Virus record (IMG/VR): IMGVR_UViG_3300008122_000004
Location: 1 to 41,907 of that record
Reading direction: 5' to 3' (one strand)
Source of the DNA: a virus
Length of the DNA stretch: 41,907 bases
This document shows, piece by piece, positions 4,019 through 4,478 of the stretch. The notes under the pieces were generated by a model. That model ran no database searches, had not been told where the DNA came from, and was given only the letters and a program-made list of their open reading frames with translations. The position numbers were made by a program, and so were the translations under genes. The first letter of the stretch is position 1, and every line of letters starts with the position of its first letter.

Positions 4019-4042
4019 AAAAAAATCCCCTCTTTCGAGGGG
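4019..4042 (-). terminator. Strong leftward intrinsic terminator
   Basis: Read leftward: CCCCTC, a GAAA tetraloop, GAGGGG (4042 to 4027), then AU and seven U (4025-4019 are all A on the plus strand). There is no T-run on the plus side, so it acts leftward only. It ends whatever is transcribed from the 4050-4460 region and any read-through from SSB. Confidence 0.9.
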
Positions 4043-4170
4043 CAATGTCAACATGGAGTGTTGGTGGTGCAGTGAATTGGTTGTGGCATGGATGAATCTA
4101 TTCGGCATGGGCCCACTCATCTAGGCCATTTGCAGACACGCAGCATTGCTGAGCGTGATGCCTTATTAAC

Positions 4171-4277
4171 CACAACTGAGGTTGCTATCCAAGGAGATGC
4201 GGTCGCCAACCCGCATTCTTAGCTGCGCTCATCCTTTTTGCTTACCTCGTCAGGCGTAGATAGCAACCTCAGTTGTG
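4171..4277. repeat. 19-bp perfect inverted repeat with 69-nt loop
   Basis: CACAACTGAGGTTGCTATC (4171-4189) is the exact reverse complement of 4259-4277. The loop contains ATGCGG and CCGCAT separated by eight bases, giving an inner hairpin. It lies in a region without a supported gene, which favours an RNA stem over a protein-coding coincidence. Confidence 0.85.
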
Positions 4278-4450
4278 TGCCTGTCTTAACGCTTCAGGCT
4301 CGGCGTGTGGTGGCCGGTGCTGAACTCCGTACATAATATCTTGCTCATCAACGTGTAAGGCACTAAGGCGGCCTTCGCTCAGATTGTTCGTCCTCGCCGT
4401 ATCTAGGACCCTACGTCGCGCATCAGCCTGCGCATTCACCACAAAACGAA

Positions 4451-4478
4451 TTATCATCTAACTGTTGTCACAAGTCAA
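4451..4478 (-). promoter_or_regulatory. Candidate promoter for the 4019-4444 RNA
   Basis: Read leftward: TTGACT (complement of 4473-4478), 16 bp, TGATAA (complement of 4451-4456). It lies immediately after the SSB stop at 4482. It does not have the paired GTTGTTGACA arrangement, so it would be under different control. Confidence 0.45.

Follow-up and report, generated by a model that had tools for sequence, protein, structure and literature searches.

GOLLD and ROOL are large, ornate non-coding RNAs of phages, several hundred nucleotides in length. STnc100 (RF02076), also phage-borne, consists of (A)UGGUGAAU, a hairpin, a variable middle and a hairpin abutting CACCA. STnc100 and PasD are prophage-borne small RNAs whose reported seed regions differ (PMC13192938). 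The locus described here resembles GOLLD and ROOL in length but differs from them in being a chain of small mobile modules, and it has no Rfam match. One of these units, module A, shares with STnc100 the order UGGUGAAU-hairpin-core-hairpin-CACCA, as judged by alignment and pairing, although the sequences of the hairpins and their loops differ between the two. A second unit, the B2 family, has the motif GAAUAAGGCA ... UGCCGA-AUAGA and the closing stem in common with Methylophilales-1 (RF03011).

Composition of the intergenic region

The window is the whole 41,907-nt stretch of viral DNA that was analysed. The gap of interest (4019-4444) lies between a YopX-like ORF (3976-3527, minus strand) and an ssb-like ORF (4886-4482, minus strand); both gene names were taken over from the preliminary description of this DNA. 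The phage is of the Aeromonas type, 14 of the 18 distant matches to its structural genes being in Aeromonas phages. The gap had been described as devoid of any credible gene and this view held up: ORFs in the interval measure 30 to 62 amino acids, and the longest (62 aa, 4457-4269), which spans module A, was rejected on the core lengths of the relatives (see below). The signals listed previously were all recovered by sequence scan, on the minus strand. They include a promoter-like pair, TTGACT-17-GATAAT (4450-4478), whose -10 motif ends 7 nt before module A and whose predicted +1 is near position 4443; an intrinsic terminator, CCCCTCGAAAGAGGGG followed by ATTTTTTTAG (4019-4042), with a GAAA loop and seven U; and a 19-bp perfect inverted repeat. 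Within a 3-kb region, promoter-like sites were no more frequent than chance would give (3, with 3.5 expected) and terminator-like sites were in mild excess (5 versus 2.5), so that the window's own signals gain weight only through its relatives. The relative in phage 62AhydR11PP likewise ends in a terminator of the window's sequence type.

No Rfam family matched the window at its gathering threshold, or the gap alone at E <= 10. The models for tmRNA, GOLLD, ROOL and HEARO gave no match in the window, and neither tRNA nor tmRNA was found in the gap by ARAGORN or Rfam, in agreement with the earlier placement of this RNA outside the four classes. The Rfam covariance search proposed at that time was run with no match; the accompanying proposal, examination of the stems of relatives, did reveal covariation. 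The 424-nt minus-strand RNA folds with an energy of -156.7 kcal/mol (z = -4.6). Folding energy was nonetheless rejected as evidence for an RNA: the plus strand of the gap scores well too (z = -3.5) and the excess is due to the 19-bp hairpin alone (z = -7.1), module A by itself being no better than shuffles (z = -0.4). With the excess confined to one hairpin, energy is misleading either way, and the proof of an RNA comes from the relatives rather than from low folding energy.

The preliminary description had envisaged one large ornate RNA. This part was not supported: the 424 nt consist of tandem, separately mobile modules, each of which occurs elsewhere alone or reordered. Module A (4307-4443, minus strand, 137 nt), delimited by a search for relatives, alignment and covariation, is followed by a linker hairpin (4303-4279), a 19-bp stem enclosing a variable insert, and module B2 (4176-4080). 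The linker hairpin, CCGA-GCCUG-AAGCGUUAAGA-CAGGC on the minus strand, is shared with four Aeromonas-type loci. It (4303-4277) is nearly matched by the hairpin at the 3′ end of the P22 sas RNA (PMC13397905); beyond this hairpin sas, which is antisense to sieB, is unrelated to the window. The 19-bp perfect stem (4171-4277, minus strand; arms 4277-4259 and 4189-4171), identified by inverted-repeat scan and folding, is the least widespread part of the gap RNA, and both of its arms are altered in Aeromonas phage 4_4512. The same phage carries a match to the int-alpA RNA (L008:269-335, 31.9 bits), just below the gathering score.

Module B2, GUUGUGG ... AAUAAGGCAU ... AUGCCGAAUAGA ... CCACAAC (4080-4176, minus strand), was recognised from its relatives and its fold. 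The 5′ strand of the module and the 3′ arm of the 19-bp stem share positions 4171-4176, where the two stems compete; hence, they cannot both close fully at once. The B2 family, AATAAGGCAT...ATGCCGAATAGA, is represented in 34 IMG/VR stretches, mostly behind the same leader as module A. A single phage contig (L401:6982-7411) carries a pair of B2-like modules on one strand at a distance of 357 nt from each other. A B2 relative in L254 scored 30.3 bits with the Methylophilales-1 model (gathering score 79.9), and the window's own B2 gave no match to this model at E <= 10.

Module order varies among Aeromonas phages. In 62AhydR11PP it is the same as in the window, followed by a tRNA and the terminator. 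In ST4, an STnc100-like module stands in module A's place before the linker hairpin; module A and B2 come after the linker, and then tRNA-Pro, -Thr and -Gly. The ST4 module scored 39.1 bits with the STnc100 model (E 1.2e-6 in that search), against a gathering score of 47 bits; searched with the same model, the window yielded no match at E <= 10.

Module A and its relatives

Module A combines constant ends, the chassis, with a hypervariable core. The chassis can be written as UGUGGUG-AAU-GCGCA-GGCUGA-UGCGC ... GCCGG-AGAUCAGCA-CCGGC-CACCACA. On the minus strand of the window, an acceptor-like closing stem is formed by UGUGGUG (4437-4443) and CACCACA (4312-4306), with its six inner pairs covarying and the stem present in the fold. 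A D-arm-like hairpin, GCGCA-GGCUGA-UGCGC (4418-4433), is supported by covariation, and a T-arm-like hairpin, UACGG-AGUUCAGCA-CCGGC (4313-4331), by alignment and by covariation in relatives. The D-arm-like hairpin is invariant in our alignment (A1) save for compensated changes, namely GCACA/UGUGC in the P1-like phage and ACGCA/UGCGU in CUS-3. The T-arm-like stem undergoes a compensated change from GCCGG/CCGGC to GUCGG/CCGAC in CUS-3. In the window, this hairpin has lost its two outer pairs, keeping 3 bp, and it is missing from the minimum-energy fold. Its loop contains UCAGC, complementary to GCUGA (4427-4423) in the D-arm-like loop.

Across 117 distinct pairs of chassis ends, standard pairs filled 95% of the cells in the closing stem, both hairpins and the loop-loop positions. 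Double changes numbered 22, 14 and 10 in the acceptor, D and T stems, respectively, versus maxima of 8, 6 and 5 in 500 shuffles, and sliding the partners by one or two columns lowered pairing to 25-37% overall. The relatives having been fetched with exact ends, variation at the searched end is hidden and covariation, if anything, is underestimated. Thus, all three stems covary beyond shuffles and the chassis is well supported by these comparisons. The complementarity of GCUGA and UCAGC is 97% conserved; its covariation did not go beyond shuffles, although covariation says little on this pairing because both loops are nearly invariant.

A sensitive search produced matches to the gap in 234 annotated-phage records, mostly as two short blocks; as it was run to E 10, the weak tail of these records includes chance matches. 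The two blocks correspond to both ends of one element, TGTGGTGAATGCGCAGGCTGATGCGC and GCCGGAGATCAGCACCGGCCACCACA, separated by some 10-230 nt of unrelated sequence. Exact searches of IMG/VR with either end returned at least 120 stretches each, and one-per-species genomes, mostly of beta- and gammaproteobacteria, 57 stretches with the chassis. Numerous carriers are phages whose hosts are enteric bacteria, Pseudomonas or Aeromonas. The chassis lies between Q and the holin gene in CUS-3 and Pseudomonas phage Shamal, upstream of a tRNA array in Klebsiella phage UPM 2146 and just ahead of tRNA-Phe in phiEt88; ep3 and a Punavirus P1 also carry it. The chassis defines a real and widespread RNA family, present in hundreds of phages and unannotated in the sources searched. 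No description of it was found in the literature searched, which for the most part did not extend to subscription papers and bioRxiv-only preprints. In L036, L078, L060, L347 and L361, the chassis sits inside a longer outer stem, GGCTTTGGGAT ... ATCACCAAAGCC, making up a second context.

The core (4332-4417, minus strand, 86 nt in the window) was defined by sequence comparison. That of the window occurs only here and in one near-identical contig (L132). Altogether, 202 distinct cores fell into 129 clusters at 75% identity. In 16 pairs of elements both 60-nt flanks are at least 85% identical and the cores less than 50% identical, and core clusters 0, 1, 6 and 8 recur behind different flanks. 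No pair of near-identical cores was found with both flanks unlike (<55%), a cut-off close to random global identity in a set where most elements share the leader; the movement of a core into new flanks consequently rests on the cluster examples. The 16 same-flank pairs provide the stronger evidence, and the exchange of cores between phages is a well-supported reading. A search of 3.5 Mb of fetched DNA for core sequences outside the listed chassis led almost exclusively to further chassis copies, and we dropped the idea that cores originate from, or lie antisense to, sequence elsewhere in the fetched loci. The window's core had short chance matches only in these loci. Likewise, we abandoned the notion of cores as a class of structured RNA, their folding being no better than that of control sequence from the same loci (z -0.34 and -0.29).

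Possible tRNA likeness and the leader site

The elements of module A succeed one another as in tRNA: a closing stem, a hairpin after a linker of 2-3 nt and a second hairpin abutting the 3′ closing strand. The likeness may extend to stacking and to the complementary loops, and module A shares gene clusters and a leader site with tRNA and tRNA-like RNAs. Unlike tRNA, it has no anticodon arm, its D and T loops are non-canonical (the T-like loop has 9 nt instead of 7 and lacks the TTCRA motif) and its CCA is unfixed: in relatives, CCA is over-represented at offsets of 1-5 nt from the stem, at no set position, and it is absent from the window's module A. ARAGORN and the Rfam tRNA model (RF00005) called no tRNA on module A elements. 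The layout and covarying stems are found in relatives, with a loop pairing that is conserved without covarying, and are weakened in the window. The existence of elements inside a longer outer stem suggests that free tRNA-like ends are not required.

Directly before 84 of the 202 distinct contexts of the chassis we found a boxA-like leader, AGTGCTCTTTCCGTT, where 1.2 were expected; the boxA of rrn operons is TGCTCTTTAACA. A -10 hexamer 5-9 nt before the chassis was seen in 24 of the 202 contexts against 11 expected, a weak signal, and no context has both the leader and a -10 so placed. Terminator-like sites within 150 nt behind the element were present in 74 of 217 cases (14.3 expected), and 27 of 240 elements had a same-strand tRNA gene no more than 300 nt away, where 6.2 would be expected counting either strand. 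Since the elements are not phylogenetically independent, the ratios for leader, terminators and tRNAs are indicative. Together with the covarying stems, the -10 at the chassis start and the terminators enriched behind relatives speak for the earlier proposal of a non-coding RNA with start and stop signals of its own. As a whole, the earlier interpretation is partly supported.

In other phages, the leader site is occupied by other cassettes. It holds tRNA-Arg in L232, STnc100-like RNAs in L289 and L051, and a B2 family member in L254. In L238, L274, L259, L282, L309 and L323 it holds tRNA-like RNAs with canonical T-arms and long inserts that are not anticodon arms; strict matches to such RNAs were absent from shuffles. 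Three of these RNAs, with canonical acceptors, map to L238:7221-7345 (minus strand), L274:1243-1366 (plus strand) and L259:13616-13741 (plus strand). In the RNA of L309, both the D-arm and the T-loop are canonical, a long insert other than an anticodon arm is present and ACCA follows the stem; this RNA has exactly the 7-bp acceptor (UGUGGUG/CACCACA) and T-stem (GCCGG/CCGGC) of module A. The shared stems suggest that module A is laid out like a tRNA in which the core has taken the place of the anticodon arm, a reading that we regard as moderately supported.

In lambda, a closed cassette, GTGCTGAATTAAGCG...CAGCAC, is found at the position of module A in CUS-3. We discarded a generic test for closing stems in leader-anchored cassettes, as shuffles passed it in 78% of cases. 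Lambda PreS was considered as the same locus and rejected, its position being between ea10 and ral (PMC12197685); P22E was rejected because its sequence does not contain the chassis.

Candidate roles of the module

We lean towards the view that the region is a phage small-RNA gene, equipped with a promoter and a terminator of its own, with tandem modules, a tRNA-like chassis and a payload acting in trans. The gap would be transcribed leftward between these two signals. The chassis would constitute a stable tRNA-like holder that protects the RNA ends, its two hairpin loops touching at the elbow as the D-arm and T-arm do in tRNA, and maturation would borrow tRNA-like features. In other phages, the holder would often be made along with tRNAs from antiterminated, boxA-led late transcripts. 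The core would be an exchangeable payload directed in trans, by base pairing or as bait, at a target in the host or in a competitor, for which host defence, host mRNA and competitor phages are candidates. The folding of cores, similar to control sequence, argues against uniformly structured payloads, and because cores are unstructured and fast-changing, base pairing or bait fits better than a catalytic or uniformly folded domain.

It is possible, if rather unlikely, that module A is instead a conventional small RNA of the STnc100/PasD type, in which the scaffold stabilises, the core is an Hfq-dependent mRNA seed and the resemblance to tRNA is coincidental. The architecture common with STnc100, the replacement of module A by an STnc100-like module in ST4, the different seeds reported for the prophage-borne PasD and STnc100 (PMC13192938) and the lack of unusual structure in cores all agree with such a role, but it leaves aside the acceptor and T-stem shared with the tRNA-like RNA of L309 and the tRNA neighbours, and the window's module A itself has no Hfq-type 3′ tail.

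We consider improbable a cis-acting element of late or tRNA-operon transcripts, whereby boxA and a structured RNA protect untranslated transcripts from termination in a manner comparable to nut sites, rrn leaders or the HK022 put RNA. Despite the frequency of the boxA-like leader and the location between Q and holin in CUS-3, lambda and Shamal, boxA is missing from over half of the contexts and a terminator often comes immediately after the element. Moreover, the window copy has its own promoter and terminator with no gene behind, and a hypervariable core is not expected of a cis signal. Very improbable, in turn, is a site of exchange at the DNA level, that is, recombination boundaries bounded by inverted repeats and with no RNA role. 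Cores are indeed swapped within constant ends, and the CUS-3 record labels the flanks "boundary sequence"; yet such a site would not account for compensatory changes in three stems, for terminators and placed promoters, or for a location shared with tRNA. Finally, a small protein such as the 62-aa product is hardly credible even with an open frame at hand, as the core lengths of relatives (34, 35, 37, 38, 40 ... nt) ignore frame and stem covariation accounts for the conservation.

If the small-RNA gene reading is extended, phages of beta- and gammaproteobacteria might share a superfamily of tRNA-derived RNAs in which an exchangeable payload takes the place of the anticodon arm, a suggestion that we make tentatively. 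Module A, STnc100, the Methylophilales-1-like B2 family and the lambda late-leader cassette would be its members. Such a superfamily would parallel, in nature, the engineered tRNA scaffold, with payloads aimed at host defences or genes, and would bring STnc100, PasD, Methylophilales-1 and the unexplained late-leader RNA into a single framework. An RNA engaged in an arms race would be expected to combine a fixed chassis with a core that can be exchanged. A family so common in well-studied phages and outside Rfam would represent a blind spot in phage biology, to which the lambda late leader, with a different cassette at the same site, would add. The role of the non-coding RNAs in phage tRNA clusters would also become a testable question.

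The lambda late leader (L133, lambda 44,845-44,945) lies between orf-64 and S and reads boxA-like AGTGCTCTTTCCGTT, then GTGCTGAATTAAGCG...CAACAGCAC. A recurring minimal pseudo-tRNA, made up of the hairpin CGGGTTCCCTACCCG and a T-arm, was observed behind a boxA-like leader in L120, L071, L354, L320 and L248.
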